A stretch of 64,000 nucleotides of DNA, taken from assembly GCF_008329525.1 (NCBI RefSeq), contig NZ_NPKQ01000013.1, positions 1 through 64,000 of the forward strand, in the 5' to 3' direction. Shown here in pieces: positions 4,142-31,956 of the stretch. Source of the stretch: Tardiphaga sp. P9-11 (GTDB lineage: Bacteria; Pseudomonadota; Alphaproteobacteria; Rhizobiales; Xanthobacteraceae). A program made the translations under genes and the position numbers. Under the pieces are notes generated by a model, which ran no database searches, was not told where the DNA came from, and worked only from the letters and a program-made list of their open reading frames with translations. Numbering within the stretch: position 1 is the first letter of the stretch; the number at the start of each line of letters is the position of its first letter.

Positions 4142-4168
4142 TATGCCTCGTTCGAGGTCGAGCGAACG

Positions 4169-11787: not shown

Positions 11788-13236
11788 TCATGCCATGCGA
11801 TATTTCAACTTGAGATAATCGGTCTGCGTATCGGTGGGGAGATACATTCCGGCTTTGCACAACCAGTCCTCGTTACTGTTTGCCAGAACATACTCGGCGT
11901 GTGCGAAAGGCTGCAACCATGACAGAGAGCGATTCCAGTCCGCGACCATATCTGATGACGAGAGGTACCAGTTCTGATGTAGGGTAAGGGCCTTCGACAC
12001 GATGTCTATGCGCACCTGCATCGCTGCATTCGGCCCAAGGCATTCAATGGCATACCCGACGATTGCGTAATCAAGAATCGACGCGCGTATTCCCAGCAGA
12101 TGAGGCTGGGGGTCGAGTCGTCCAAAGTCCCATGTAAACCAGCGATCATAGGCCAGCTTCCACATCGCCTCACGTTGACTGCGGCTTGCACACGCTTGAA
12201 ATGCACGCAAGCAAGTTGCCACATTCTCCCTGCCAGTGTCATCCAACGCCACATCATGCAATTGGACCGCAGCTATATATGCCTCAATCGCTGGTAACGG
12301 GACGCCCGCAAGCGCCGTACCAAGAGCTTCTTGAAGCCGAGGATACCGGACAGGATACCGATTAAAAATATCCATGAGCGTGCGCCAACGATCAGGGTCA
12401 GCGGACATTTTCGTTATCAATACGTCCAACCCAAGGACGGAAGGCGTTGGGTGGCCGCGTCCATAAACAGCGCTTCTGAGGGCAGCAAACTCGAAGTAAG
12501 GGCTAGAACACGCAACTGCCAGCGCGAGACAGGCCTCCTCATCACCGACAGCGCCTACAAACGAGACCGCAAGAAGAGCCTCATCAATTCCCGAGAGAAC
12601 AACCAGCAGCTCATTTGGCCCGCATCGCGAAAGAATGCGCGTAGCCTGCGCTTGGAGAAGCGACGCAGAAACAAAGTCGCCGGAACGATCCAGACATTCG
12701 TTGATCTCCTTCCAATCCTTGGACGTATTAGCAGCTGCAAAACGTTCAACGGCGGCCTTTGTGGAGATCGGAGACTGGGTACGTAGCGGAGCATCGATGG
12801 TTACTCTGCAGGCTCGCAACATGGCCTGCAGTATTGCGACGAGTTGCTGGTTCGCCGCGAAGGGATTTGACAAAAGTCCCCACAACTCGTGGCCGATATC
12901 GCTCATGGTGCCAGCTACAAAAACCGCCGCAAGTGTCCGCTGCTGCGGATCGTTGACGGGATTCCATCCAGTAAGTTGTTCAACCATCCAGCGAAAAAGA
13001 GCGCTCCACCTTTCCATATCAGCCGGACTGGGGCGCACACCTGCGACACGGGCCAATTGAATAAAGCCATACTCACGACTAAACGCGTCACATAGCGCGT
13101 GACATTGATCCCAGTTGGTCAGCAGTTCCATCGGACGATCGATGGCTGCAAGAGCTGACAACACGCTAGCGGGGCCGCAAGCCGGGCCCGGATTACGCGC
13201 GCTAACCAGAACATCCGCCAGAACAGGATGCGTCAT
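11788..13236 (-). CDS. Unknown 482-aa helical protein in VPA1262-like operon
   Basis: No family recognised. The protein is soluble, helix-rich and leucine/alanine-rich throughout, with many cysteines and tryptophans and no membrane segment, NTPase motif or nuclease motif that I can see. Repeated helix pairs (for example RAFQACASRSQREAMWKLAYDRW and LLQAQATRILSRCGPNELLVVLSGI) suggest a scaffold or sensor fold. Its ATG overlaps the stop of the upstream VPA1262-like gene by 4 bp (13233-13236), so the two are translationally coupled and very likely act together. A role in phage defence is inference from the partner and the island. Confidence 0.65.
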   Translation of the reverse strand: MTHPVLADVLVSARNPGPACGPASVLSALAAIDRPMELLTNWDQCHALCDAFSREYGFIQLARVAGVRPSPADMERWSALFRWMVEQLTGWNPVNDPQQRTLAAVFVAGTMSDIGHELWGLLSNPFAANQQLVAILQAMLRACRVTIDAPLRTQSPISTKAAVERFAAANTSKDWKEINECLDRSGDFVSASLLQAQATRILSRCGPNELLVVLSGIDEALLAVSFVGAVGDEEACLALAVACSSPYFEFAALRSAVYGRGHPTPSVLGLDVLITKMSADPDRWRTLMDIFNRYPVRYPRLQEALGTALAGVPLPAIEAYIAAVQLHDVALDDTGRENVATCLRAFQACASRSQREAMWKLAYDRWFTWDFGRLDPQPHLLGIRASILDYAIVGYAIECLGPNAAMQVRIDIVSKALTLHQNWYLSSSDMVADWNRSLSWLQPFAHAEYVLANSNEDWLCKAGMYLPTDTQTDYLKLKYRMA

Positions 13237-14981
13237 GGCGTTTTCCAGATGAGATGTTCGGGCTTTGCCAATTCATCCCATAGGTCGAGGAAGGCATCCA
13301 TGATGCGACGCCCATCATCGACACGTTGCAGGATGTGGTGTGAGCGCCCGATCTGGTTGACGGAGATGCCGAGCGACCATGCAAGCGCACTGCCGTCTTC
13401 CTGTGGAAAGATAAGGAATCGGTCGTGAAACGGCCAACCGTCCTGGCCTGCCTTCATTCGATATTCAAAGCGAAGCCCAATGTTATTGGATTCCGCAGCC
13501 GTGAGTTCTTGCTGTTGAAGTTCAGCGAAGCTTGGTGGGGTCGGAGGCCGCAGATAGGGGATTGTAGCGCGAAGGACCGCAAGGGCATGGACCAGGAGCG
13601 ATGTGAAAGTCGGCTTCGTGCGAACAGACTGGTGCGGGGGCTCGTTTGCGGCCGTCAAAGCACGCAAATCCGCACCACTGTGGATGCAATAAAACAGCGT
13701 CTTTAAAACGTCGTGCGCGGAAAGATATGGGTCCCACAACCAAGCGCCATATCGGCCGTGGCGGTTGATCAATCGGCGTATGTCATCCAGGGCTGATTCA
13801 TGCATCTGGGAGGACGGTGCATCGCCCGGAGTATACTGCTTGAACAAGCTCTGTTCGACCAGGCGGTCATTCTCCTCGCGGTAGATCCGCGCACGCGCCC
13901 AATCAAAGGCACGTTGATCGGTGAGCGGGCCAACCGTAGAATTCATCGCACTCGAAACGCCAATCTGTACGCTCTGGTATTTTCCCTTACCATCCCTGAC
14001 CTTAAAGGCCCGGGGCTCCGCATTACCCCCAAGGGCATGAATGCCAAAGTTGATCTGCCTTATGAATCCTGTGCGACCCTGGGCCGCGAGAAGGACGCCT
14101 TCCTGGTCGTCCCAGAGATAATTCTCCATCTGTCCATCACCTGCCGCCGTTGGCAAAGTCGCTTGAGGCGCAGCAATCGCTTGCGATGCATATCCATCGA
14201 TGGCGTTATCGAACTCCGTCGCACTCACTGCCCTCAATGGACGCGGCGTCGCACTCGGGTGCCAAGCGAGGGTGATATGTGTGTCTCCCGACGCCCGTAA
14301 CTGGGAAAATCGCGCCAAGACGACGGTCACAGGTATCTGAACAACGATATTGCCTAGCTTATCGGACATGCTGCCGATGCGTATTGGCACCCGCTCCATG
14401 ACTTTGGCAGAGAGGTCTAACAACAACCGAGGTGTATCGAAAAAGGGACGGAAGCTGTGCTTCGTCTGGTCGATCAACTCAAATACATGCGCTCCGTTGT
14501 CGAAGTTGTTTTTAAGCAGCCTGTTCCAGGGGACCTCGAATGAACTGTCCGGTGCCACGAATACAGGTGTACCGGATGCCATCTCTCCAAGATCAAAGGT
14601 GCCGCTTGAGGATCGCCAAATGCCATCAAGGATATCGTTGAGGCAGGGCAGTATGGCTGCAATCGGCCGTACCGTGCGACGAATCCCAAAGAAGGAATCT
14701 CTAAAGTGAGGCAGGCGTATGCGTTCGCCAAGCCAAACCGGTTTCTCACTAACTCCGGCACTATGTTCTTCCGCCACCAGGAGAGTGAAGACGTTGGTCG
14801 TCTTACGCGTTGTGTTAGAAAATTCGAATATCTCGGTTATTTCAAAGTGCGTGTGAAACCCCACCACGCCCGGCACCGCAATTTTTGTAATCCGCGCTAT
14901 CGCTCTCGCAAACGATAACTCGCGCTCTTTTGCCAACTCTTCCTTCGTAGGTCGTAGCGCTCGGGTCATCTTGTTCGACAA
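13233..14981 (-). CDS. VPA1262-like protein with PLD-like C-terminal region
   Basis: The 582-aa protein resembles the VPA1262 family (named from a Vibrio gene) by my recall of its long N-terminal domain and C-terminal motifs. The last 200 residues contain WDPYLSAHDVLKTLFYC and FHDRFLIFPQEDGSALAWSLG, an arrangement like the phospholipase D superfamily in which HDR takes the place of the usual HxK. Such domains act as nucleases in several defence proteins. It is first gene of an operon with a 482-aa unknown (4-bp overlap) and a DUF4238 gene. The family name is moderately sure; the enzymatic activity is inference. Confidence 0.6.
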   Translation of the reverse strand: MSNKMTRALRPTKEELAKERELSFARAIARITKIAVPGVVGFHTHFEITEIFEFSNTTRKTTNVFTLLVAEEHSAGVSEKPVWLGERIRLPHFRDSFFGIRRTVRPIAAILPCLNDILDGIWRSSSGTFDLGEMASGTPVFVAPDSSFEVPWNRLLKNNFDNGAHVFELIDQTKHSFRPFFDTPRLLLDLSAKVMERVPIRIGSMSDKLGNIVVQIPVTVVLARFSQLRASGDTHITLAWHPSATPRPLRAVSATEFDNAIDGYASQAIAAPQATLPTAAGDGQMENYLWDDQEGVLLAAQGRTGFIRQINFGIHALGGNAEPRAFKVRDGKGKYQSVQIGVSSAMNSTVGPLTDQRAFDWARARIYREENDRLVEQSLFKQYTPGDAPSSQMHESALDDIRRLINRHGRYGAWLWDPYLSAHDVLKTLFYCIHSGADLRALTAANEPPHQSVRTKPTFTSLLVHALAVLRATIPYLRPPTPPSFAELQQQELTAAESNNIGLRFEYRMKAGQDGWPFHDRFLIFPQEDGSALAWSLGISVNQIGRSHHILQRVDDGRRIMDAFLDLWDELAKPEHLIWKTP

Positions 14982-15390: not shown

Positions 15391-15716
15391 GAACCCTCGC
15401 CTTCCTCCTCGCTGCGTTCATGGCCCTGGCCATCCAGACGCATGCCCAGGACTGGTCAGATTTCGCGACCGTCAGCATGACCAACCCGAGCACACCGAAA
15501 CTTACAGCCAACCGCCTCTGCTATACCGACGGGCGCGACCTCCTGTGCGACGGCGCCGCAGGCCTGCTGGTTACCAGCGGCACCATCGCCATCACCGGTA
15601 TCCTCCGCCATCCGGTGCTGGCATCGAAGGTCAACTATCGCTCGTGGCGCAACTGGCGCTGGCGCGGCAAATACGACACTTGGCCTATTCCGGCATCCAG
15701 ACACGCGACCGTGTGA
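15387..15716 (+). CDS. Secreted protein, possibly a truncated pilus or fibre protein
   Basis: Starting with GTG, the 109-aa product has a signal peptide (TLAFLLAAFMALAIQTHA) and then FATVSMTNPSTPKLTANRLCYTDGRDLLCDG, which is reminiscent of PilV/tail-fibre-like modules in mobile elements. After about residue 75 it becomes basic and low in structure (RSWRNWRWRGKYDTW), as if truncated. Its end overlaps by 32 bp the end of the convergent relaxase gene. Confidence 0.4.
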   Translation: MRTLAFLLAAFMALAIQTHAQDWSDFATVSMTNPSTPKLTANRLCYTDGRDLLCDGAAGLLVTSGTIAITGILRHPVLASKVNYRSWRNWRWRGKYDTWPIPASRHATV

Positions 15717-16839
15717 TGCCCCGCGTCCGCGAACCTAGCCTGTTGGCCCAGACGGTGCGCCGGACCAATTGACTCTCGCGCAGCCTCAGCAGCGCGAAGA
15801 AAAGAAGGTCAAGCTCGCTGAGCCAATAGGCGATCTCCGCCAGGCGCTTTTGCGCGTGCGCACGCGACGCCGCTCGCTGCTGTGCTGCCTCGGCTTTCGG
15901 CGTCTGCACCGCCTTCGCATAATAAACCTGCCGCTGGCGCAACCGCGCCATCTGCTTCTCCGCCTTGGCGGCAACCACCGCATACGTGCGCGCATTGCGC
16001 GCAAGCCGTTGCATGGTCCACTGGGCGCGGCTGCCGCGATCAAACTCGGGATATCGCACCTCGCGGCGCTCTACGGGAAACTTGGGCTCCCGCTTCCTTG
16101 GAGGACCCGCCTTTCGCGCAACGCTCTTCGGCGGTCGCTCCTTCCACGCCTTCCTCGCCTTCGGGCCGACGTGGATTTCAGGAACGCGCGACAACAGCAC
16201 GGCCTCTCTCGCGTTTCCCTGTGACGCGGCGTCCTGCCGCCGCGCGGTGAAACTGCGATGGTCCACCCGGTCCCGATGACCGCCGCTCTCCAATGCGCGG
16301 TTCTGGTGCGCAGCCCATGCACTACGCCACGCAATCAGCATGGCGTCACTATTCCATTCGCGGGTCTTGACCCGCCGCAGGCCCCCTGCCCCGGCCTGCC
16401 GCAAGGTCAGCAGCACATGCGCATGGTGGTTGCGCGGATCGTCGCCCTTTTCCACCACGGGTGCATGGATGGCGATATCCGCCACCATGCCCAGCCCGAC
16501 AAACTGCTCGCGGACAAAGGCGCGAACGAGCGCCAACCGCTCCTCGTCACTCAGCTCATGCGGCAAGGCCATGTTGATTTCGCGGGCAAGCTGGGCGTCG
16601 CGGCGCACCTCCATCGCTTCCACCCGATTCCATAATGTCTCGCGGTCCAGCAACCAGGACGCGCACCCTTCCGGTGCGACGATCTCGGCATGTACCACGC
16701 CGCGCCGCTTGCTGTAGTCCGCCACGGTGGTGTGGCGCTCATCTTTCAATCGCTCACCGGCCCGGTAAGCCGCCATCGCCACCACCGACCGGCCTTCTGA
16801 CCGTTTCACCGGCTGTGCTGAAAGATGATATGAAGCCAT
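15685..16839 (-). CDS. MobA/MobL-family relaxase
   Basis: The N-terminus ASYHLSAQPVKRSEGRSVVAMAAYRAGE is the conserved opening of MobA/MobL (MOBQ) relaxases, and NHHAHVLLTLR (about residue 137) is the histidine-rich HUH metal site. The enzyme nicks plasmid or element DNA at oriT to begin mobilisation. At 384 aa it is much shorter than TraA-like fusions and lacks a helicase; the C-terminal third is a basic coiled-coil-like region. No type IV secretion genes are visible, so the element would need a helper. The oriT, normally just upstream, may lie at 16,840-16,960. Confidence 0.82.
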   Translation of the reverse strand: MASYHLSAQPVKRSEGRSVVAMAAYRAGERLKDERHTTVADYSKRRGVVHAEIVAPEGCASWLLDRETLWNRVEAMEVRRDAQLAREINMALPHELSDEERLALVRAFVREQFVGLGMVADIAIHAPVVEKGDDPRNHHAHVLLTLRQAGAGGLRRVKTREWNSDAMLIAWRSAWAAHQNRALESGGHRDRVDHRSFTARRQDAASQGNAREAVLLSRVPEIHVGPKARKAWKERPPKSVARKAGPPRKREPKFPVERREVRYPEFDRGSRAQWTMQRLARNARTYAVVAAKAEKQMARLRQRQVYYAKAVQTPKAEAAQQRAASRAHAQKRLAEIAYWLSELDLLFFALLRLRESQLVRRTVWANRLGSRTRGITRSRVWMPE

Positions 16840-19457: not shown

Positions 19458-20126
19458 CTATTTTGAACCTTCCAGCGCGGACGCGTTCAAGCGGAGGCCT
19501 GCCGTGAAGTGATGCTTGGCATCCAACTCAATACCGACGTAACTGAATCCGGCGTTTTTTGCAGCCATCAGGCTGGACCCGGAGCCGCAGAACGGGTCCA
19601 GCACCACGCCATTTGATGAGCTGAAGCTCTCGGCCAAAGGGGTCAGGAGACTGATGGGTTTCTGCGTCGGATGAAAACGGTTGCCCGTATATTCCCAATC
19701 GCGGACATCCGAGAGCGGAGCTTCCGGCAACACGGCATCGCCCTTCACGAGCAAGTAAGCCTGTTCATGGCGGTGTTCGAAGAAGCGCTTTGAAGAAGCG
19801 TATTTCTTCTGAAAGACGACATGCCCGACAATCCTGAACCCTGCCTTGCGCCAAGCCAGGATGAACTTGTCGGCGGCATTCCAGCCGTAGAAACTCAGGC
19901 AGAATGAGCCGGGCTTGAGTACGCGGTACATCTCAGCAAATGCTGGTTCGAGCCATTCGTCGCGGTCATCATTGGCGATGGTCTGCCCATCGCGCGAACG
20001 ATAGCGCACCAGATAAGGAGGGTCCGTCAGCACCATATCCACACTGGTGGATGGCATGCGCCGCATGACCTCGACGCAATCTCCGTGGATGACGGTATTG
20101 CGCACGCTGGCAAGAGGAAGGCTCAT
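19458..20126 (-). CDS. Site-specific DNA methyltransferase (N4/N6 type)
   Basis: The 222-aa enzyme has the catalytic motif DPPY (about residue 36) before the AdoMet motif VLDPFCGSGSSLMAAKNAG (about 178), the order of class-beta amino-methyltransferases, which methylate adenine N6 or cytosine N4. The HPTQKP motif (about 151) is typical too. No restriction enzyme gene is next to it, so it is an orphan. It is third in a minus-strand operon with two small genes joined by 4-bp overlaps. Such plasmid methyltransferases often protect incoming DNA from host restriction. Confidence 0.85.
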   Translation of the reverse strand: MSLPLASVRNTVIHGDCVEVMRRMPSTSVDMVLTDPPYLVRYRSRDGQTIANDDRDEWLEPAFAEMYRVLKPGSFCLSFYGWNAADKFILAWRKAGFRIVGHVVFQKKYASSKRFFEHRHEQAYLLVKGDAVLPEAPLSDVRDWEYTGNRFHPTQKPISLLTPLAESFSSSNGVVLDPFCGSGSSLMAAKNAGFSYVGIELDAKHHFTAGLRLNASALEGSK

Positions 20127-20916: not shown

Positions 20917-20925
20917 GTGACCAGG

Positions 20926-21186
20926 ATGAAGAAAGCCAAGCCAGCGTCACCACGGAATGCCAACTCCATCGATGTGCATATTGCTGGGCAGATTCGCAGG
21001 ATACGGCTTGAGCGGAACATGAGTCAGGACGAGCTTGGCGAAGCCATCGTCGTCAGCTTCCAGCAGATTCAGAAGTATGAGCGCGCCGCAAACCGGGTCA
21101 GTGCAGGCCGCCTGTACGAAATTTGCGTAGCACTCGATTTCTCGATCAGCCAAATCTTTGAGGGTATGACGCCCAAGCCGCGCTGA
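20926..21186 (+). CDS. XRE-family transcriptional regulator
   Basis: The 86-aa protein is a single lambda-repressor-like helix-turn-helix domain: IAGQIRRIRLERNMSQDELGEAIVVSFQQIQKYERAANRVSAGRLYEICVAL is the canonical five-helix pattern, with the recognition helix around SFQQIQKYE. The ATG at 20926 has GAGG 8 bases upstream; the GTG at 20917 overlaps that site and is less likely. It precedes the giant nuclease-STAND gene by 327 bp on the same strand and could control it or the mobile element. Confidence 0.8.
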   Translation: MKKAKPASPRNANSIDVHIAGQIRRIRLERNMSQDELGEAIVVSFQQIQKYERAANRVSAGRLYEICVALDFSISQIFEGMTPKPR

Positions 21187-21512: not shown

Positions 21513-24500
21513 ATGACTAGCGTCGAATCCCCGCGCTCTGACTCGTTGGGCGCTCGCGCGTCAAATGCAGGCGACCAATTTCATGAGCTTTGGGCACTGC
21601 AGCAGGCGCTCGAACTTCTAAACCCGTCCTTAGGCTTGAGCGCCCTCACAGTTGAAGGCGTGGCGACCGAGGCGGAAGAAAGCGACCGCTCAGTTTGGGA
21701 CGGCGTCGATTGCGCGCTTTACTTTGGCGGACAGTCCTTGGAAAGCGCTGCCCACATCGACATCGCACAACACAAATACTCGTCGACCGACCCGGATCAA
21801 GATTGGACGGTCGCACGCCTCTCATACAACAAGAAGAAAGACGGCAACAATTCGGCGCTTCGGCGCTTAGCGGACGCCTTCAGTGGCGCGAGGAAGGTGA
21901 TGCAGGCTGATGCTGGGCTGCGCGTCCGCTTTATCAGCAATCAGAACATCTCCAGCGCAGTGTCCGATGCGATCAGCGCAATAATTACGCCCTCTCCCTC
22001 GAAGCTCGATCCAAAGCTCACAAGCGATATTCAGAAAATCCAGGCGGCCACAGGACTTGACGGTGAAGACCTGAATGCCTTCCTTCGATGCTTGGATTTC
22101 TCGGAGTGCGGCAAGTCGTCAAGGTCCTCCCTTCGCCGGTCTATCACCCAGCATGTATCCCAGATTCTCGGCGAGGATGAGAGTGCGACCGTCCGTGAGC
22201 TGATGTCCCAAATCCGCGAACTGATGATGCCGGGGTATTCCCGCGCAATTGTCACCCGACAAATGGTCTTGTCGTGGTTTGGCGTGACGACCGAGACCGG
22301 GCTCTTTCCAGCACAAAGCGATTTCAAATCGATAACTAGTGCCATTCAGCGCGAACCCACAACCAGATTGTTTGAAGCGATCAGCCGTGGCGCTAAGGTA
22401 ACGTGTCTGCACGGCGGGGCTGGATGTGGGAAGACCACGACCCTTATACAACTAGGTTCGGCCTTACCTCCGTCGTCCGTTCTATTGCTTTTCGATTGTT
22501 ACGGCGGCGGACGTTATCTCTTTTCTAATGATCGCAGGCACCTGCCCGAACATGCGTTCACGCAAATCGCAAACGAGCTTGCCCTAACGCTTGGAATTCC
22601 GTTCCTACTCGCGCGCGGATCTAAAGCGCCACTACTTATCAGGCGGTTTCTCGAACATGTGAAACTTGCAGCCGGACTTCTGGCCAAAGCACATCCTGAA
22701 GCCTTGCTAGTTCTTGGAGTAGACGCCGCAGACAACTCGGTAACGGCCGCCGCAAAATCTGACCCGAAAGATTCCTGCTTCGTTACCGAGCTCGCAAATG
22801 CCGATCTATCGATACTTCCCAACAACGTGCGGTTGGTTTTCAGTGCGCGCACCGTCAGAAAAGGTACACTAAAGCTTCCCGCTAATGTCTCAGAAGTCCC
22901 CTGCCCGCCGTTCAGCCTTGAGGAAACAAAGCAGTTCGTAGCCCTTAAGTTCGCAACACCCTCCAAGGATTGGATAGAGCAGTTTTATGCTTTGTCGGGA
23001 GGCGTGCCGCGCGTTCAGGACTATGCAATGAGCGCAGGCAACGGCGATCTAGAGTCTACGCTGAACGCTCTGCGTCCTGGCGGCAAGAACGTGGCTGACG
23101 TCCTGCGAAAGCTCTTCCACGACGCTACAAAGCGGTCCGGAAATGATGGGCTGTATCCTACATACATGTCCAGTATTGCGGCCTTGCCCGCTCCCATTCC
23201 GCCGGCACATCTTGCCGCTGTCTGTGGAGTTCAGGAATCGGAGATTCTGGATTTCGTTCAAGACACAAGACCCAGCCTTCGCGTCGAAGAAGATGGAATT
23301 TCGATAGCGGATGAGGATGTTGAGGACTTCATCCGCACCGAGGGACAAGCAGAAATAGCAAAGGCGCGGCAGACCATTTGCGATCACTTTGCTACGGTCT
23401 ATACCTCAGACACCTACGCCGCCGTGAACTATGCAGACCTCCTCGCCTCCGCCGGGAGAGCGGATGCCATCCTCCCCATTATTGAGACGGATCTCGCGCC
23501 AGCAGCTATCGCTGATCCCATCATTAGAAGAGAAGTCCAACTGCGCAGATTGCGACTTGCCCAGTCTGCTTGTCGGACTGCAGGTAACTCGGTCGCCAGC
23601 ATGAAGGTCGTGCTGTTGAGTGCGGAAGCCTCAAAAGATGAAGCCTTCCTGGCGGATATCCTCAATCAGCACCCGGATCTTTCGACGCGATTTGCTCGAT
23701 CGTCGCTGGTTAGGCTTGTATTATCGGATTCCGACAGAACCAAGAGCCAGGGGCGGGTTCTCATTCAGGATGCGGCGCGAGCTGCGCAAGCTGGAAACGT
23801 CATCCAAGCACGCGAACAGCTATACTATTACGATGAGTGGTTGGAACGTCGAAAGCGCGTGCCAGAGGAAGATCGAGGGGATTGGAAAGTCGAAACGGAC
23901 GACCTGGTCGCCCGCATAGAAACCATAGCGCTTCTAGAGGGTCCTGCCAGCGCATATCAAGACATGATGCGTTGGAAGCCACCGCACGCCCGGATTCAGG
24001 TTGCGCTAAAACTCATTCCTCAGCTTATCGCGCGCGGCAACACAGGTATAGTGCAGAAGGCGGTGGATGACGGCCTCTTACCGTCGGCATGGAAAATCCT
24101 ACTCCTCGTACCGCTGGCCCTATCGGGAGCAACGATTCAAGCTGAAGACCTAGAGCGGGCATTGCTCGGATTGCGTCGGGCATTGATCGCACCACTAAAC
24201 GGAATTGGCTATGTATCGTCCCAGGATAGATGGACCCCTGAACTCCATGGGCTGGTAGTCACCGCATGCGAGATTGGTTTTTCCATTGGCGTCTCCGAAC
24301 TATCAATTCGCAAAGCGCTGAAACTCATTGCCGATTTCGACCGGAAGTTTGACAAACAGTCCTCGTCCTTTGACGCCGACATCCTCGACATACTGCTGAG
24401 GGCTTGGCTCCTTCGACGGACGCTCGACAAATTGCCAACAACAGCCGACGAATTTCTAAAGTTCATCGATCCCGAAGGGAAGAAGCCAAAGGCGACGAAT

Positions 24501-27500
24501 CCCCGAAAGAAGCGTCGTAGCGCGAAGGCAAAGCCGCAAGAGCGGTCGTCCTCGCCTCCACTCGACAGCGAACAACGGCAGATCGTCTCAACCGCGTTCA
24601 AGGTCTATGTGAGCCGCATCCCTTTGTTGCAACATCACGCCAAGAACGGAAGCATTGATGACACCCTCGTCGAGGAAATCACAGGCTTTGGTTATGAGGA
24701 CTATCTATTCAAACGCCATGCAGGCATCGGCATCAAGCCGAGAGCAGCCCTCAGCGTTCTTAGTTTGATGCATCTTAGGGGAGCCTCCTGGAAAGCTCTT
24801 TTTACAAAAGCCGCCGGTTTGGCATCGTTCGATTATAACGACCCGTTTGCGCATCGCCTTGTCCCACTTTGGCGCTTCTTACTCTTGCGCGATGAAAGCC
24901 GTGATTTCGTCCTGCAGTCGCTTGCAGAGAGAAGAGACGGGATTCGGTTGGCGAGAGAGCCAGCTTCGGACAAGGTCAATGCTGCAATTGAGTTTAGTCG
25001 CCTTTCGCTGAATTTCAGCGAACCCGACGCGCGCGCTTTCTTTGAAGAAGCCGTCGTTCTGGCCCAGCAGATTGACCGGGAGGCAATGAATCAAATCGAG
25101 GTGCTTCATGCCCTCACCGTTCATTCCACGAAATGGAACCAGAATGCGAGGACGGCCGCGGTTCCTATCTCAGTAAACGTGTTCACTGAAATAGCAGAAC
25201 GCCTTCGCAACGAAGAACATTTCCCATGGGAAGGAAGCATAAACTGCCTTGTACGGCTTCATGCGCCAACGGCCCTCGCGGCGGTTTCCCGCTGGTCGGA
25301 CCAAGGCACGCACGGCCTCTCTGAATCCCTGCGATTGTTTCTGGCAGAGGTCACCCGACTTGGAGGCCTCTCTCCATCTGCTGCGACTTCGCTGTTGACC
25401 CTTATAGATTATGCTCCAGATCAGCTTAAGGCAGACATCGTCAATGGGCTGCGAAGCGTTGAGGAGGTGCCTGCCAACCTCGTCCTGGAAGAGTTGGCAG
25501 TGGAGTGCTTGCTGTTAGAGCAACCGGGCCTTATAGCCGCCCAAGCAGGGGTCTTGCTGGATGCTGCCAAACCCCTGAAGGGAGATCGCCTCCCCGCATT
25601 TCGACGGCTTGCTGAGACGTTTCAATATCTAGATGCCAGAAGAACAAGGCCACCAAAGGTGAAGGCCGAGAAGCGCACTGTCCCAAGTCTTGTCGGGCAA
25701 CGCTTCGTTACCCAAGCAGCAATCGAGGCAGAATATGACGCCGCCCGCAAGACGGGCGGTTACTTCGACACCGTATCATTCCTGAGCCAGATGATCAGCG
25801 TCACCTCATCGCCGGGCGATCGTGTGCTCTTTCTTGATGCCTTGGCGATAAGCAATATTAACGCATTTAGCGAATCAACACGCGCATCCGTTATCCTGGC
25901 CGCTTTATCGGCATGGGAATCGATACCATCAGTCCAGCAGTGGTGCTCAAGGTCGCTACCATCCGTTATCGTGCATTGTTTCTCCGGCCTCACGGGCCGG
26001 TATTATGGCAGGCATCATTCTACTGGTTTGAAGGAATTGCTTGCGGCCACTCACCTTCCAGATTCCGATAAACTCAACATCATAACCGAAGCTCTAGAGG
26101 GCATCGGTCTTTCTCTAGGCGGCGAATCACTGTTCGGTATTGCCGAGCTCATGGCCATCCTCTTAACGTCTCAAGAGGCCCATGAAGTATTTGACTGGTA
26201 TCTTTTTCGTCTGAACGAGCGCGTCCTACATGATGAGAAAGATCTGAAACCGGATGATTTGCCAGAAGATCTAAACGCTGCGGTCGGTCGCTTTCTCTTT
26301 GCGCTTATGAGCGACGTCGACACACGCATTAGATGGCGTGCAGCCCACGCCGCGCGACGACTAGCGAGAATGGATGACACCGCCTCTTTGAATGCAATCT
26401 ACGCCAACTTCGACCGTGTATCAGATGACGTCTTTCGAGCGCCGTCCGCGCCATTTTATTTCTTGGCCGCGCGGCTTTGGGCCGCAATGGCCGCCGCGAG
26501 GATTGCGAACGAGGCGCCAACAGCTCTAATGGGCATTCATGCCAAACTCATTACAATTGCGCTCGATGAGACACAGCCTCATCTGCTCATTCGTGAACAT
26601 GCCAAAGCCGCGCTCCAAGCACTGGATGACACGAAGCATGCCAAGCTTGATTCCGACCTAAAGAACAAAATTCGTAAGATCAATATCTCGCCGTTTAAGC
26701 CCAAGCAGCGCAAGGAAAACAAGTATCCCGGCATTGATCGAGGCGAAAGGAAGGATGAACGGCACCACTTCGGCTACGACACCGTGGAGCATATGCTATT
26801 GCCCGTTCTTAGGATGTTTGTTGGCCTTACGAAGGAAGAACTATTCGAGCGCCTGGAGTATTGGCTAATCGACCAATGGCACACACCCGACAAGGTCCAC
26901 TATTGGGATCTTGAACCCCGCAAAAGCCGTTACAGCGACCGCGATCAGAGTCTCTCACATTCACATAAGGGCGGGCGGCCGCTCATTGAACGGTATGGAT
27001 ACTACCTTGAATGGAATGCCATACTCTGCGTGGTGTCCGAGTTTCTGCAGAAGTATCCATTGTGGAAGACGGACGATAGGTGGGGCTCATTTAGCTATTG
27101 GCTTTCTGAACTATCGCTCACGGAGTCGCCAGCATGGCTCTCGGACCTACGCGACCCGAAGCCGCTAGAAGATCAATTTTGGCTCCCCGGCAAGGAGGAT
27201 GAAAGCAGATGGGTAAGCCGCACATCACATCAAGATTTCCTGGCCGCGCTGTTTCCCTCAGAGGGAAAGAATCGGAGCATTATCCGTGTGGATGGCTCCT
27301 GGGTCTCAGCGTTTCCGACGCGCGAAATGCGCACCGACATTTCCAGCGCTCTGATTAATCCAGCTACAGCATCATCACTCGCACGCGCCCTGCAGATGCG
27401 GAACGACCATCGATGGGGGTATCACTTCCCAGATGAGCGGGAAAACGAAGACGAATTTGATCGAGGGTTTAGTGTCATGCCATTCAAACTTACGGGATGG

Positions 27501-27977
27501 TTGATTGACATCAGAAATGATGGAGGACTCGACAAGAAAGACCCTTTCACAAACGCAATTGGTTCAGGTCGGCGCTCACTTGGTAAGGTCATTGAAGCAC
27601 AGCTGAACTTGAAAGCAGCACCCCTGCCCGCGAAAGCCTGGAAAATGGAGGGGCTAACGTCAGTGGCAGCGGAGCAGATCATTTGGTCGGACCTACCTGA
27701 AAGATACGACGATGGTTCATGGAGATCGCGAGAAACGAAATCGCACGGCCATCTACTCCAGATTCAAGCAGACGTGCTATCGTCCTTCCTCAAATCAGAG
27801 AAGATGGATCTGATCGTTGGCGTTCACATCGAACGGAGGCTGGAGCAAGAGTATAGGGGCAGGCATGGCGGCGAAACAAAGAAAACCAAGTCGTTCGAGA
27901 AATTCTTCATCTTCCGTGCCGACGGAACGATCGAAGATTACCAAAGAAGTATTGGCACTTGGCGAAGCGCTCGTTGA
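21513..27977 (+). CDS. Giant Avs-like protein: N-terminal nuclease plus STAND ATPase
   Basis: The 2154-aa protein begins with a Cap4/DUF4297-like PD-(D/E)xK nuclease region: DQFHELWALQQALEL, GVDCALYF (about 62) and IDIAQHKYSS (about 83), matching the D...QxK core. A STAND NTPase follows, with Walker A GGAGCGKTTTLIQL (about 302) and Walker B ALLVLGVDAADN (about 398). A long helical repeat region then runs to the end, interrupted by a basic linker (about 990-1015). This layout is that of antiviral STAND (Avs) proteins, which bind a conserved phage protein, assemble, and degrade DNA. It is longer than most, and AT-richer than the core genes nearby. A 281-aa gene overlaps its end. Confidence 0.72.
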   Translation: MTSVESPRSDSLGARASNAGDQFHELWALQQALELLNPSLGLSALTVEGVATEAEESDRSVWDGVDCALYFGGQSLESAAHIDIAQHKYSSTDPDQDWTVARLSYNKKKDGNNSALRRLADAFSGARKVMQADAGLRVRFISNQNISSAVSDAISAIITPSPSKLDPKLTSDIQKIQAATGLDGEDLNAFLRCLDFSECGKSSRSSLRRSITQHVSQILGEDESATVRELMSQIRELMMPGYSRAIVTRQMVLSWFGVTTETGLFPAQSDFKSITSAIQREPTTRLFEAISRGAKVTCLHGGAGCGKTTTLIQLGSALPPSSVLLLFDCYGGGRYLFSNDRRHLPEHAFTQIANELALTLGIPFLLARGSKAPLLIRRFLEHVKLAAGLLAKAHPEALLVLGVDAADNSVTAAAKSDPKDSCFVTELANADLSILPNNVRLVFSARTVRKGTLKLPANVSEVPCPPFSLEETKQFVALKFATPSKDWIEQFYALSGGVPRVQDYAMSAGNGDLESTLNALRPGGKNVADVLRKLFHDATKRSGNDGLYPTYMSSIAALPAPIPPAHLAAVCGVQESEILDFVQDTRPSLRVEEDGISIADEDVEDFIRTEGQAEIAKARQTICDHFATVYTSDTYAAVNYADLLASAGRADAILPIIETDLAPAAIADPIIRREVQLRRLRLAQSACRTAGNSVASMKVVLLSAEASKDEAFLADILNQHPDLSTRFARSSLVRLVLSDSDRTKSQGRVLIQDAARAAQAGNVIQAREQLYYYDEWLERRKRVPEEDRGDWKVETDDLVARIETIALLEGPASAYQDMMRWKPPHARIQVALKLIPQLIARGNTGIVQKAVDDGLLPSAWKILLLVPLALSGATIQAEDLERALLGLRRALIAPLNGIGYVSSQDRWTPELHGLVVTACEIGFSIGVSELSIRKALKLIADFDRKFDKQSSSFDADILDILLRAWLLRRTLDKLPTTADEFLKFIDPEGKKPKATNPRKKRRSAKAKPQERSSSPPLDSEQRQIVSTAFKVYVSRIPLLQHHAKNGSIDDTLVEEITGFGYEDYLFKRHAGIGIKPRAALSVLSLMHLRGASWKALFTKAAGLASFDYNDPFAHRLVPLWRFLLLRDESRDFVLQSLAERRDGIRLAREPASDKVNAAIEFSRLSLNFSEPDARAFFEEAVVLAQQIDREAMNQIEVLHALTVHSTKWNQNARTAAVPISVNVFTEIAERLRNEEHFPWEGSINCLVRLHAPTALAAVSRWSDQGTHGLSESLRLFLAEVTRLGGLSPSAATSLLTLIDYAPDQLKADIVNGLRSVEEVPANLVLEELAVECLLLEQPGLIAAQAGVLLDAAKPLKGDRLPAFRRLAETFQYLDARRTRPPKVKAEKRTVPSLVGQRFVTQAAIEAEYDAARKTGGYFDTVSFLSQMISVTSSPGDRVLFLDALAISNINAFSESTRASVILAALSAWESIPSVQQWCSRSLPSVIVHCFSGLTGRYYGRHHSTGLKELLAATHLPDSDKLNIITEALEGIGLSLGGESLFGIAELMAILLTSQEAHEVFDWYLFRLNERVLHDEKDLKPDDLPEDLNAAVGRFLFALMSDVDTRIRWRAAHAARRLARMDDTASLNAIYANFDRVSDDVFRAPSAPFYFLAARLWAAMAAARIANEAPTALMGIHAKLITIALDETQPHLLIREHAKAALQALDDTKHAKLDSDLKNKIRKINISPFKPKQRKENKYPGIDRGERKDERHHFGYDTVEHMLLPVLRMFVGLTKEELFERLEYWLIDQWHTPDKVHYWDLEPRKSRYSDRDQSLSHSHKGGRPLIERYGYYLEWNAILCVVSEFLQKYPLWKTDDRWGSFSYWLSELSLTESPAWLSDLRDPKPLEDQFWLPGKEDESRWVSRTSHQDFLAALFPSEGKNRSIIRVDGSWVSAFPTREMRTDISSALINPATASSLARALQMRNDHRWGYHFPDERENEDEFDRGFSVMPFKLTGWLIDIRNDGGLDKKDPFTNAIGSGRRSLGKVIEAQLNLKAAPLPAKAWKMEGLTSVAAEQIIWSDLPERYDDGSWRSRETKSHGHLLQIQADVLSSFLKSEKMDLIVGVHIERRLEQEYRGRHGGETKKTKSFEKFFIFRADGTIEDYQRSIGTWRSAR

Positions 27978-28710
27978 GCAATTCAAGCTTAAGCCGGATG
28001 ACGACATCTTGGGTCAGTGGATCACGCATCATCTCGCGGAGAAGTTTACCGAACACAAGAACGCCAAAGGTGCGGCAAAGGATGTTCTTGGTGCCGAGCT
28101 AGTCGACACTATTATGAAATTCTGGAAGCATCGTGCGGTTTTCCCACGTGGCGATGCACCTTTTGAGAACTACGATGCGATCATTCGGGCTCTGGAAAGC
28201 TTCGATCCGGATCGTGAGCGATACTTCAGCTATAGAGCCGCCAATGAAGCCATCGATGGCGCTACCCCTGCGTCGCGGCAGCTCATCGACCTTGCAAAAA
28301 GTTTGGACCGCGGAACGCGTGCCCTAGTCAACTTTTGCTTCACCTATGCCGCGTACGCCTCCGGAAAGCCGCCCAAGGCTTGGCTCGATGCAGCAAGGGT
28401 GCTGGAAGCAGACACCGACGTGAGGATTGTGAGGCGCTTTGTTGACGCAAGTGAAGCGCTTGACGCCTCCGAAAAGAGAGAACCAACCGCTACTGAACTT
28501 GAAATTGAAAGTCTTGTGGATGTGCAAGCCGACTTGGCCGCTCTTTTGGAGTCCGCAAAGATAATTGGAGAAGTCATTGATGCCCGTTTGAAAGGCTTAA
28601 CAAGCAAGGTTGCTGATGGCAGGCCAGTCCACGTTGCTAAGAAGAGGTCTTCACAAACAGCCCCCAAAAACAGGAAAGCTACGTCGAAAAAGCGGCTGTC
28701 CGGGCGATAG
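27865..28710 (+). CDS. Partner protein of the giant nuclease-STAND system
   Basis: The start at 27865 follows AGGGGCAGGC and overlaps the end of the giant gene by 113 bp in another frame, so the two are translated together. The 281-aa product has a basic Ser/Lys-rich N-terminus, a helical core with LKPDDDILGQWITHHLAEKF and LDRGTRALVNFCFTYAAYASGKPPKAWLDAARVLE, and a Lys/Arg-rich tail (KKRSSQTAPKNRKATSKKR). No motif of a known enzyme is seen. AVAST type III systems are reported to have a second small gene beside the nuclease-STAND gene; this may be the analogue, which is an inference. Confidence 0.65.
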   Translation: MAAKQRKPSRSRNSSSSVPTERSKITKEVLALGEALVEQFKLKPDDDILGQWITHHLAEKFTEHKNAKGAAKDVLGAELVDTIMKFWKHRAVFPRGDAPFENYDAIIRALESFDPDRERYFSYRAANEAIDGATPASRQLIDLAKSLDRGTRALVNFCFTYAAYASGKPPKAWLDAARVLEADTDVRIVRRFVDASEALDASEKREPTATELEIESLVDVQADLAALLESAKIIGEVIDARLKGLTSKVADGRPVHVAKKRSSQTAPKNRKATSKKRLSGR

Positions 28711-28838: not shown

Positions 28839-30155
28839 CTAGGCCTGCTCATAGAGTTCAGTATCGTCTTTGGGTCGCACTACGGGCTTCCGCCGCACCT
28901 TCGGCTTTGCTCGAACCACATTGATCGCCGCTGCATCCAGCCGATTCTTAATGTGAGCGGCATAGAACCTCTCAATCATCTCCACGCTGGTCCGGCAGTT
29001 CTTGGCAATCTGATAAATATCAGCTCCCTCCATCAACCGCATGCAGATGTAGGTATGTCGCAAACTGTACGCAGTCCGGCGATTGCCATCCCTATCAAGT
29101 TTGAGTTCGCTCCGATCAAGCACCCCGTTGAATAATTTGATGTGGTTGCCTGGAAACACGTGGTCCGTCGGCTTTGGCAATTGCGGCGCCTCGGTTGACG
29201 GCGGTGCCTTGGCCCTTGCCCGTGCTTTGCCCTGCTTGGTGTATTTGGGACGGGCCAGCAGCCGCTCGTATGGGCTCACCGCCATGGGCGTGCTCTTGCA
29301 GTAACCGATGCCCCGCTTGCCCCGCACCTCGATCTCCAGGATGCGCTCACCGCTGTGGGCATCTTCAACAATGGTCACGTCCCGATGCTGGAGGTTCTTG
29401 GCCTCATCCGGCCGCAGGCCGGTGTTTGCGAGGAACAGGACGTAATCGTGGACCTGCTCCGCCCTCCAGCGATGATGGATCTGGCTAGCCTTGGCATGGG
29501 CGCGGGTGGCACCGTAGAGCTGCTTGTATTCATCCGGGCTGAACCAGGGCCGGTGTACGACCTTGCCCGATGTCTTGTAGGCCGGTGAGAAATCCGGAAG
29601 GTGCGCGAGCCATTCGTGACGGATGGCCGTCTTCAACACCTGCCGGATGGTCACGATTTCATCGTGGATGGTGCTGCGGGCGGGCGCCTTGCCGGTCGTT
29701 GAAGTCGATATCCGGTGAACCCGGTACTCTTGGACCTTGCCTGGCGTGATTCGAGAAAGAGCTAGGTCTCCGAAGAAGGGCAAGAGGTGCAGACGCAGCC
29801 GAATGGCGTAGCCCTCAATCCACCGGGGACTGCGTTGCCCCTCGGTGATGACCTCATATTCCTTCTGGAACTGCTCCGCGGCTTGCCGGAAGGTTTTTTC
29901 GTTGATGAGCAAACCGGCCCGGGATTTTCCCCGCAGCTCCAAATACCAGTCCTCGGCGAACTGCTTGGCGTGGGCGAGGCTCTCTTCCTTCGTACTGATT
30001 CGCCGGTTCCGGCCTTTCAGGTAGGTGGAGCACTGCCAGTAATTGCTGTTCTCACGTTTATAAACGTGGAGCTTACCGCCCATCAATTCATGGGTGATCA
30101 TCCTGACCTCCTTCCACGGTGTTTTGTGTAACACCTGTGTAAGGGGGTTTTTCAC
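28839..30155 (-). CDS. Tyrosine recombinase (integrase) of the inner element
   Basis: The 438-aa protein has an N-terminal arm and SAM-like core-binding domain and a catalytic domain with TGLRPDEAKNL (first Arg), SLRHTYICMRLM (HxxR region, here R-H-T-Y) and IERFYAAHI (nucleophile Tyr about 412). It catalyses integration and excision of the element. It starts 42 bp from a 52-bp tRNA-Met 3' fragment, so that tRNA gene is its likely attachment target. The downstream genes (giant STAND pair, regulator, methyltransferase, relaxase) are probable cargo and backbone of its element. Confidence 0.85.
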   Translation of the reverse strand: MKNPLTQVLHKTPWKEVRMITHELMGGKLHVYKRENSNYWQCSTYLKGRNRRISTKEESLAHAKQFAEDWYLELRGKSRAGLLINEKTFRQAAEQFQKEYEVITEGQRSPRWIEGYAIRLRLHLLPFFGDLALSRITPGKVQEYRVHRISTSTTGKAPARSTIHDEIVTIRQVLKTAIRHEWLAHLPDFSPAYKTSGKVVHRPWFSPDEYKQLYGATRAHAKASQIHHRWRAEQVHDYVLFLANTGLRPDEAKNLQHRDVTIVEDAHSGERILEIEVRGKRGIGYCKSTPMAVSPYERLLARPKYTKQGKARARAKAPPSTEAPQLPKPTDHVFPGNHIKLFNGVLDRSELKLDRDGNRRTAYSLRHTYICMRLMEGADIYQIAKNCRTSVEMIERFYAAHIKNRLDAAAINVVRAKPKVRRKPVVRPKDDTELYEQA

Positions 30156-30196: not shown

Positions 30197-30248
30197 TGGT
30201 TGCGGGGATAGGATTTGAACCTATGACCTTCAGGTTATGAGCCTGACG
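30197..30248 (-). repeat. tRNA-Met 3' fragment, attachment site between two integrases
   Basis: On the minus strand this reads CGTCAGGCTCATAACC..., continuing through an anticodon arm with loop CTCATAA (anticodon CAT), a T-arm GGTTCAAATCC and an acceptor end CCCCGCAACCA. It matches the 3' two-thirds of an alphaproteobacterial tRNA-Met, most likely the initiator. The D-arm and 5' acceptor strand are missing. It is therefore a recombination remnant (attP- or attR-like) of the element whose integrase starts 42 bp away. The stop codon of the second integrase (30235-30237) lies inside the anticodon loop. Confidence 0.75.
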
Positions 30249-31803
30249 GTCCTTTAGTCGGATCAATGTTCAAGTGAGGGATCTTACAGATTTCACGATA
30301 CAATGCTTCGACCGGAAATTCCCCGTACGCGTCAGCCACCGATTTTGAACCATGACCGGTCATGGCCTCCAGAATATCTTTCGCGAGGCTGTAGCGACGT
30401 CCTAGCGTCTTCATGCGGTGGCGCCAAGAGTGGCTCGGAGAGATGCGAGGATCCGTGATGCCAAGTTGCCTAACAAAGCGCCCGATCACCTTTGTCCCGT
30501 TGCCACCGCGCTTCCCGAATTTGTCTGGCGGTAGCTCGGAGAATATGGGGCCGGCTTTTTTCTGAAGGGCAAATTTCAGAAAACCACTTTCCTCAAGAGC
30601 CGGATGCACCGGAATAATTCGCTCGGATCCTGCCGTCTTCACCGAGCCAGCTTCCGGCATGATTTTCATGCACCAGATGCCGTCGATCTCGACCACGTCC
30701 TCGCGACGCAATTGGCAGATCTCAGATACGCGAGCTCCGGAATAAGCCCCGATCCATGGCACCCAACGTTTCACCGGATCCGAAGACGCCGTTGCGGCGA
30801 CCAGAACAATTTTAGCCTCCTCGTCGGTGAAGCTTCGCTTCTTCTCACTCTGCTTGCTTCGAGTGTCGAGCGAAATTCCATCCGCAACATTCGAGCTCAG
30901 CTTCTTATTGGCGACGCCCCACTGAAGGATCGCCCGAACTGGTGCGAGTTTGGCATCCTGGATCGTCTTGGGCCGAAGACCCTCGGTCAACATCGCTTCT
31001 TTCCAGCGAACCATGTCGTCGCCAGTAAGGGCCCGAGCATTGTCATGCTTTAAGAACGCGACCAGCTGTTTCACGACGCGTGACCATTCATACAACGTCT
31101 TCTCAACAGGACGGCGCTCTTTAGCCCAACCGTCAACCAGATCGTTGAATGCGAATGGCTCCTGAGAGGGCATTGAAGGTAAGATAGGCGAGCTGCTCGC
31201 AGCGATAGGCGCCGCCGCGCCGACGCCTTGCGACAGCTGCTGCAAAGCGACACTGGCACGCTGAACCGCAGCTCCGATCGCGCGAGCCAATATCCTGTTG
31301 TCGCTTCCGGCCAGTCGAAGGCCGACATTTGAGGCGCAGCTATCGGCCCATTCCAGGCACCACCGCTCCATTTCTCGGACCCGTAGCTCATCCCTATCTA
31401 CGACGATCGCAGCGGCGTCGTAGAGGAACTCGTAATTCGCCGAGATCGGGCTGGGCTGAAAAAGCCGCGGACCTAGATCCACGCGCCAATCAGTCTGCTG
31501 GCTCGGATTTTCCAGGTATCGCTGTAACCATCTGTCGTAGAATGCCGCGGCAAGATGATGCGCCTCACGCTCACTCAGGCTCTTCTGGCCGGATCTGAGA
31601 TTGGCCCATTTCGCCTCGATTTCAGCCAGGGCGGCGGAATGCTTCACTTTCGCCAGCGCGGGATCCTTGGTCCCGAGCGTGCGAAGTTCCTCACGCTTTC
31701 CCACGAGCGTAATGAGCTCGTCCGGAACGCGTTTTCGCAGCCAATAGATCCCCGTTTTGGGGTGCTTCCAAGGACGTGACATTGCAAGGGGCATGTGTAT
31801 CAC
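30235..31803 (-). CDS. Tyrosine recombinase (integrase) next to tRNA-Phe
   Basis: A 522-aa integrase whose N-terminus (SRPWKHPKTGIYWLRKRVPDELI) matches the DUF6538-type phage/island integrases. The catalytic part has YSGARVSEICQLRREDV (first Arg), PSHSWRHRMKTLGRR (HxxR), TGHGSKS (second His) and ADAYGEFP (Tyr about 505). It starts 78-99 bp from the 3' end of tRNA-Phe; the ATG at 31782 giving MSRPWK is an alternative start. It most likely inserted the whole island at tRNA-Phe. Its last three codons and stop fall inside the tRNA-Met fragment, so its natural 3' end may have been replaced by another element. Confidence 0.85.
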   Translation of the reverse strand: MIHMPLAMSRPWKHPKTGIYWLRKRVPDELITLVGKREELRTLGTKDPALAKVKHSAALAEIEAKWANLRSGQKSLSEREAHHLAAAFYDRWLQRYLENPSQQTDWRVDLGPRLFQPSPISANYEFLYDAAAIVVDRDELRVREMERWCLEWADSCASNVGLRLAGSDNRILARAIGAAVQRASVALQQLSQGVGAAAPIAASSSPILPSMPSQEPFAFNDLVDGWAKERRPVEKTLYEWSRVVKQLVAFLKHDNARALTGDDMVRWKEAMLTEGLRPKTIQDAKLAPVRAILQWGVANKKLSSNVADGISLDTRSKQSEKKRSFTDEEAKIVLVAATASSDPVKRWVPWIGAYSGARVSEICQLRREDVVEIDGIWCMKIMPEAGSVKTAGSERIIPVHPALEESGFLKFALQKKAGPIFSELPPDKFGKRGGNGTKVIGRFVRQLGITDPRISPSHSWRHRMKTLGRRYSLAKDILEAMTGHGSKSVADAYGEFPVEALYREICKIPHLNIDPTKGPSGS

Positions 31804-31880: not shown

Positions 31881-31956
31881 TGGTGCCCAGGGGCGGGATC
31901 GAACCACCGACACTGCGATTTTCAGTCGCATGCTCTACCAACTGAGCTACCTGGGC
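31881..31956 (-). tRNA. tRNA-Phe(GAA)
   Basis: A full 76-nt cloverleaf with encoded CCA: acceptor GCCCAGG/CCTGGGC, D-arm AGCTCAGTTGGTAGAGC, anticodon loop CTGAAAA (GAA), T-arm GGTTCGATCCC. A small hairpin AGGCTT-ACT-AAGCCT followed by TTGT (31865-31879) is a likely terminator. Its 3' end borders the integrase of the accessory island, making it the island's anchor point. Confidence 0.95.

Follow-up and report, generated by a model that had tools for sequence, protein, structure and literature searches.

An intact avs3a-avs3b gene pair in Tardiphaga sp. P9-11 is very probably a divergent Avs3 (AVAST type III) defence system

A 2154-amino-acid protein of Tardiphaga sp. P9-11, with a nuclease-like N terminus and a STAND-type ATPase region, is encoded beside a smaller protein whose gene begins inside its own. 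Does this pair represent a new class of nuclease-STAND protein or a known defence system? We examined it within a window of 64,000 nucleotides, the whole stretch of DNA analysed (contig NZ_NPKQ01000013.1, positions 1 to 64,000). Based on sequence, the pair is very probably an Avs3 system (AVAST type III) and its genes are avs3a and avs3b. Both start with ATG and the frame of avs3a is intact; avs3b overlaps the 3' end of avs3a by 113 base pairs (bp), and both frames were found as the first-pass annotation of this DNA had described them. The longest mechanical frame of avs3b begins at a TTG at 27817 and encodes 297 amino acids. The features of the pair, in window coordinates, are:

21513-27977, + strand: avs3a, 2154-amino-acid nuclease-STAND-sensor protein, frame intact (PADLOC, NCBIfam and SeAvs3 matches)
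21654-21776, + strand: PD-(D/E)xK-type active-site residues E48, D66 and Q86-x-K88 of Avs3a (SeAvs3 alignment, conservation)
22413-22436, + strand: Walker A, GGAGCGKT, Avs3a residues 301-308 (G304, G306 and K307 in 83 of 83 aligned sequences)
22710-22733, + strand: Walker B and the following DAAD, Avs3a residues 400-407 (D404, A405 and D407 in 83 of 83)
23430-27974, + strand: C-terminal sensor region of Avs3a, from about residue 640, boundary approximate (alignments; homology to SeAvs3)
24465-24617, + strand: K/R-rich linker, Avs3a residues 985-1035 (alignment of nine near-clade sequences)
27855-27859, + strand: AGGGG, Shine-Dalgarno-like, 5 nucleotides 5' of the avs3b ATG (sequence)
27865-27977, + strand: avs3a/avs3b overlap, 113 bp, with avs3b read in phase 1 with respect to avs3a (frames)
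27865-28710, + strand: avs3b, 281-amino-acid partner, predicted all-helical (PADLOC, NCBIfam, AlphaFold2 model)
27958-28209, + strand: conserved core of Avs3b, residues 32-115 (L32, G33, W52, H55, A58, E59, W87, R90 and P99; 63 sequences)
28597-28707, + strand: basic C-terminal tail of the window Avs3b, net charge +11, not kept in the family (tail charge count)

The PADLOC Avs3a model (PDLC02167) matches the larger protein with an E-value of 6.2e-196 (651.7 bits) and the NCBIfam Avs3a model (NF041816) with an E-value of 2.5e-208 (694.8 bits). Each match falls in two stretches, the best being residues 1145-2141 and 15-843. The smaller protein is matched by PADLOC Avs3b (PDLC02168; E 1.4e-42) and by NCBIfam Avs3b (NF041817) at 130.8 bits, below the cut-off of 200 (131.5 bits in a six-frame search). 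Such E-values for the two proteins lie well outside what chance would give. The same six-frame search gave a match in one of 21 relatives, the window genome itself at its sub-cut-off score, and in none of 14 control genomes. No other Avs model is found for the pair among the PADLOC and NCBIfam matches with E up to 1; the AVAST type III-like layout proposed at first pass is thus upheld, and on firmer ground.

Among solved structures searched with phmmer, SeAvs3 (PDB 8dgc, chain 8dgc_A) is the sole strong match to the window Avs3a (E 7.2e-123), over residues 9-842, 1150-1313 and 1522-2142. When a family profile was searched against the PDB, 60 of the 69 rows were listed and SeAvs3 is again the sole Avs protein in them; this search is partly circular because the profile contains sequences from the SeAvs3 side of the family tree. 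We further chose 21 representatives from the wider family. All 21 match Avs3a and no other NCBIfam family (E up to 0.001), and all 21 match PADLOC Avs3a; four further PADLOC families have weak matches, each to one or two of the representatives. Neither the window pair nor the representatives have another Avs family among the PADLOC and NCBIfam matches listed. Because the profiles, the SeAvs3 match and all 21 representatives point to Avs3a, the protein belongs to Avs3 as judged from these comparisons, and a new nuclease-STAND class is excluded. The STAND models of Pfam match the window Avs3a weakly and below their cut-offs (nSTAND_NTPase5, E 0.0016; AAA_16, E 0.0038); Pfam NACHT does not match it, and is matched by 18 of the 21 representatives at E up to 0.01.

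Are the functional motifs retained? E48, D66, Q86 and K88 of the window Avs3a, which we take from general motif knowledge to be catalytic, align with their SeAvs3 counterparts and are kept in 81, 82, 82 and 82 of 83 aligned sequences (window included). Walker A and the Walker B aspartate D404 are intact. Conservation in 81-83 of 83 sequences agrees with the PD-(D/E)xK-like N terminus and the intact Walker motifs reported at first pass, and we predict an N-terminal PD-(D/E)xK nuclease whose catalytic residues are intact and a putative STAND NTPase with both Walker motifs. Cap4_nuclease (PF14130) does not match the window protein; its weak match to one of the 21 representatives (E 0.0076) is in keeping with a predicted Cap4-like PD-(D/E)xK domain.

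Residues from about 640 onward are a probable sensor by homology to SeAvs3, seen in the phmmer stretches 1150-1313 and 1522-2142 and in the profile alignment to the SeAvs3-like locus L003 described below. The conserved RWRAAH (1607-1612) falls inside this region. Compared in 80-residue bins with 20 chosen sequences from the SeAvs3 side, the window Avs3a shows 38% identity over its first bin, 28-35% at residues 241-480 and 18-29% over residues 1601-2154. The K/R-rich linker is common to the nine near-clade sequences and shorter in two SeAvs3-side sequences inspected; the linker stretch reaches at least 45 residues in 16 of 83. The impression that the protein is larger than Avs3 did not survive comparison. 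The median length over the 83 sequences is 2119 amino acids and 16 are longer than 2154, lengths being counted from the first methionine of the open frame, so that some are upper bounds.

Where does the pair fall within Avs3? We scanned genome contigs with an alignment of six homologues and retained the best 80 of the 244 relatives obtained, to which we added plasmid homologues and loci found in same-order genomes. An Avs3a match was present in 98 sources. We aligned and placed in a tree the 83 with at least 1900 amino acids, leaving out 15, namely L001, which duplicates the window, and 14 that are short, broken or cut; L093 duplicates L046. The tree (FastTree) is unrooted, with Shimodaira-Hasegawa-like support only and no bootstrap, and was midpoint-rooted just for drawing; L005 forms a long branch and 54 sequences have a letter make-up unlike that of the alignment. 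The window Avs3a pairs with L017, from a Sphingobacteriales metagenome-assembled genome, at 42-43% identity, inside a nine-member clade on the 40-member side of the tree; avs3b is present in nine of nine. The SeAvs3-like L003 lies on the opposite, 43-member side, in a group of 38 that all carry avs3b, and a supported branch separates the window clade from the SeAvs3-like sequences. The group termed clade1 in the profile and distance analysis has 38 sequences once L093, wrongly counted among 39, is taken out. A profile of the nine near-clade sequences, with no SeAvs3-side member, aligns to L003 in one stretch over residues 3-2083 (E 4.8e-234); therefore, the two sides of the tree are homologous end to end. 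Neither the profiles nor this tree, which holds Avs3 sequences only, place the protein outside Avs, the outcome that would have contradicted the first-pass assignment.

The other members of the near clade are L013, L015, L016, L018, L019, L020 and L002, the last a plasmid gene of Rhizobium sp. BT03 annotated as a hypothetical protein; identities to the window Avs3a are 35% for L002, 35% for L013 and 32% for L020. Among the matches listed, the closest is to the partial gene L014 of an Edaphobacter metagenome-assembled genome (60% in its best segment, residues 1-1058, where the contig ends). On a plasmid of Bradyrhizobium quebecense (L012), a short segment at about 4001-4153 has 68.6% identity to window Avs3a residues 1996-2046; the 8.2 kb examined there contain neither a complete avs3a nor an avs3b. 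Homologues of Avs3a were found in five of 397 genomes of the order, the window genome included, and in one of 41 relatives, again the window genome, the other 40 giving no match; in phage records none was found at E up to 1e-5.

Is the overlapping partner a constant part of the system? An avs3b match accompanies 74 of the 83 full-length Avs3a sequences, although some of these Avs3b are cut by a contig end or broken (L021, L025, L034, L055, L060 and L066). The start of avs3b lies inside avs3a in 73 of the 74, in phase 1 in 72 and in phase 2 in one broken case (L066); the exception to the overlap is L047, where avs3b lies 832 bp downstream. The overlap is old. Its constant phase (72 of 73) spans several phyla. 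We considered whether this constancy could reflect a programmed frameshift that joins Avs3a to Avs3b, and judged shared ancestry of the overlap to be a sufficient explanation. Shine-Dalgarno-like sites are only mildly enriched before avs3b (15 of 59 ATG-start sequences, 7.3 expected). For this count we took as start the ATG closest to where the profile match begins, and dropped four of 63 sequences that lack an ATG.

These 63 Avs3b sequences are the window and 62 loci chosen for length and score, plasmid loci excluded. All 63, which an Avs3b profile had been used to select, match PADLOC Avs3b. Distances among the Avs3a sequences follow those among their Avs3b partners (matrix correlation r = 0.784, n = 62; the largest of 1000 permutations gave 0.164), and therefore the two proteins were inherited together. 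An AlphaFold2 model of Avs3b is all-helical, with nine helices, a mean predicted local distance difference test score of 78.5 and a predicted template modelling score of 0.61. Conserved residues cluster in the first part of the protein (G33, W52, H55, A58, E59, W87 and P99), which we infer to be an interaction surface. Pfam, family and solved-structure searches gave no convincing relative of Avs3b, and hence none that would mark it as an enzyme.

Could Avs3b instead bind nucleic acid and deliver DNA to the nuclease? This idea grew from the basic tail of the window protein, and the tail is indeed basic (+11 over the last 37 residues), as is that of near-clade L015 (+12 in 53 residues); the K/R-rich linker of near-clade Avs3a proteins at 985-1035 also favours it. 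However, the tail charge is +3 or more in just six of 63 sequences (window, L015, L045, L047, L051 and L072) and -3 or less in 23 of 63, tails being the alignment columns after window residue 245 and many of them shorter than five residues. We rejected the basic tail as a family trait on this count. Most Avs3b cores are acidic, and the matches to restriction-enzyme families are weak and come from single members of the 63. A DNA-delivering subunit is quite improbable.

Some homologues have no recognisable partner. Six loci that match the Avs3a model and have 18-24% identity to the window Avs3a (L008, L009, L010, L094, L095 and L005) have no Avs3b within 1.4-2.9 kb downstream; L005 lies on the window's side of the tree. 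In L009, the product of an unrelated 227-amino-acid gene some way downstream (14% identity) was left out of the Avs3b profile. L046 and L093 are duplicates of one sequence, with 29% identity to the window Avs3a, and lie on its side of the tree; 433 bp after avs3a, a frame follows that by eye resembles a transposase. Outside the tree, two broken genes also show no Avs3b: L023, split into two frames, over 10 kb of downstream sequence, and L033, of 899 residues, over 3.1 kb. L027 ends 108 bp past avs3a, so the presence of avs3b there cannot be judged, and the remaining partial avs3a genes reach a contig end or are remnants. Thus, Avs3b is not strictly required for every relative. The first-pass annotation had listed such homologues as grounds for rejecting its reading; they exist, but we do not take them as a refutation because 74 of 83 sequences in the tree carry avs3b.

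Four points weigh against placing the window pair within Avs3 and against its acting as characterised members do. Identity to L003 is only 22%; the NF041816 score is about a quarter of the 2800-bit cut-off; the middle of the sensor is poorly kept, at 10-15% identity to the 20 SeAvs3-side sequences over residues 881-1120; and avs3b is absent from the five-member clade of L008, L009, L010, L094 and L095, from L005 and L046/L093, and from the broken L023 and L033. By the NCBI rule the window Avs3a is not an equivalog, and on these comparisons it is a distant family member. We nevertheless hold it highly probable that avs3a and avs3b form an Avs3 (AVAST type III) immune system, carried on a genomic island and acting as proposed below. 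What the sequences show directly is the structure of the genes, family membership, the intact catalytic and ATPase residues and the co-inheritance of the pair.

The trigger, the oligomerisation, the DNA cutting and the whole of the role of Avs3b are proposed by analogy. SeAvs3 forms tetramers and cleaves double-stranded DNA, and the trigger of characterised Avs3 is the large terminase subunit. In the window system, the C-terminal part of Avs3a would bind a conserved phage protein made during infection, perhaps the large terminase given the homology to SeAvs3. Binding would lead the STAND domain to assemble an ATP-bound oligomer, which would activate the N-terminal PD-(D/E)xK domains to cut DNA, and this cutting would kill or arrest the infected cell ahead of phage release. 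Avs3b, made from the overlapping frame, would most likely bind Avs3a and tune or stabilise it. According to PMC12931631, the nuclease effectors of Avs1-4 bring about cell death after recognising large terminase, portal or another phage protein.

Because identity to L003 is 22% and the score reaches a quarter of what NCBIfam requires, another trigger may be used. The pair could be Avs3 by descent and yet sense another phage protein in place of large terminase, such as portal or some unrelated early product. The supported branch and the fall of sensor identity at 881-1120 are consistent with this, as is the suggestion, in PMC12931631, that Avs5, another Avs type, can be triggered by several phage ligands. 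However, the same paper also reports that all three of the tested Avs5 clades responded to a single activator, JADA, and lineage distance is by itself no proof of a new ligand. Moreover, R1607, W1608, H1690, F1769, W1875, D1878, D2007 and D2010 are invariant in the 21 representatives, L003 among them; such invariance in the C-terminal third makes a shared ligand at least as likely, and we hold a different trigger to be less likely than not. In a stronger form of the idea, the sequences on the window's side of the tree would constitute a second Avs3 lineage with a function of its own: its phage trigger would not be the terminase that SeAvs3 detects, and a subunit from the long overlapping avs3b would be built into the Avs3a sensor during translation and set recognition; we regard this as improbable.

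How did the immune system come to be in this genome? On its right the pair is followed by two integrase-like genes, one at 28839-30155 with weak SAM-like matches below cut-off and one at 30235-31803 with DUF6538, which we take to be linked to integrases, and beyond them a tRNA-Phe gene at 31881-31956. DNA homology with three relatives of the same genus stops at 31881, 31877 and 31718. Beyond these positions, the flanking 12-14 kb or so of each relative does not match the window, and two of the relatives, compared with the third, have nothing in common with it beyond the tRNA end. We interpret the locus as part of a genomic island that occupies a tRNA-Phe hot spot. Even with up to three mismatches allowed, the genome has no further copy of the 25 bases that end the tRNA-Phe gene; the contig begins at the first base of the window, and the left end of the island is off the contig or was not found. 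Rare, patchy spread and a tRNA-Phe edge are as expected of mobile defence.

Directly upstream of avs3a, an XRE-type regulator gene (20917-21186, + strand; HTH_3, E 1.2e-11) may control the avs3 operon. A helix-turn-helix gene likewise stands just upstream of the Acinetobacter homologue L007. Elsewhere in the window, a NACHT-type defence gene (2660-7018, + strand) is split by an in-frame stop at 4139-4141; its first part matches PDC-M68A, endonuclease-effector and NACHT models and its second part NACHT C-terminal Alpha/Beta 2. This is possibly the gene described at first pass as HNH-STAND. A VPA1262-family N-terminal domain protein is encoded at 13233-14981 (- strand; NCBIfam 240.6 bits, cut-off 80), adjoined by a 482-amino-acid gene at 11788-13236 with no match above cut-off. 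A 384-amino-acid protein with a MobQ relaxase domain (15685-16839, - strand; NCBIfam 247.7 bits, cut-off 200) is a sign of past mobilisation, and an N6/N4 DNA methylase is encoded at 19458-20126 (- strand; PF01555, E 2.1e-30).

The in-frame stop in the NACHT-type gene of the same window, and the short remnant of a relative on the Bradyrhizobium plasmid (L012), raise the suspicion that the avs3 pair is itself a decaying, functionless passenger of the island. However, both of its frames are intact across 7.2 kb and the active-site and ATPase residues that we checked are kept, so that we consider decay very unlikely.

How does this locus compare with known systems? Homology to SeAvs3 and the Avs3a-Avs3b families runs along its length, with nuclease, STAND and sensor in the same order and with the active-site and Walker residues of SeAvs3; the SeAvs3-like L003 also has an overlapping avs3b partner. 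In contrast, the window pair differs from SeAvs3 and L003 in its low identity (22% to L003), its position across a supported branch, its scores below both NCBIfam cut-offs, its K/R-rich linker and its basic Avs3b tail. Its nearest relatives with complete genes are the eight other near-clade members, which all have an avs3b and come from different hosts. The names avs3a and avs3b gave no match in the literature searched, whose journal coverage is partial. The locus extends Avs3 to a deep branch left unnamed by the strict NCBI model, and hence the Rhizobium gene L002 is annotated as a hypothetical protein; for annotators of genomes it is a phage-defence locus of the ordinary kind. With the set of homologues, two questions can be approached, namely the function of Avs3b and whether the same trigger serves the different Avs3 lineages. 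Taken together, these comparisons give good support to the view that the locus is a divergent member of a known defence family, and mostly an ordinary find.

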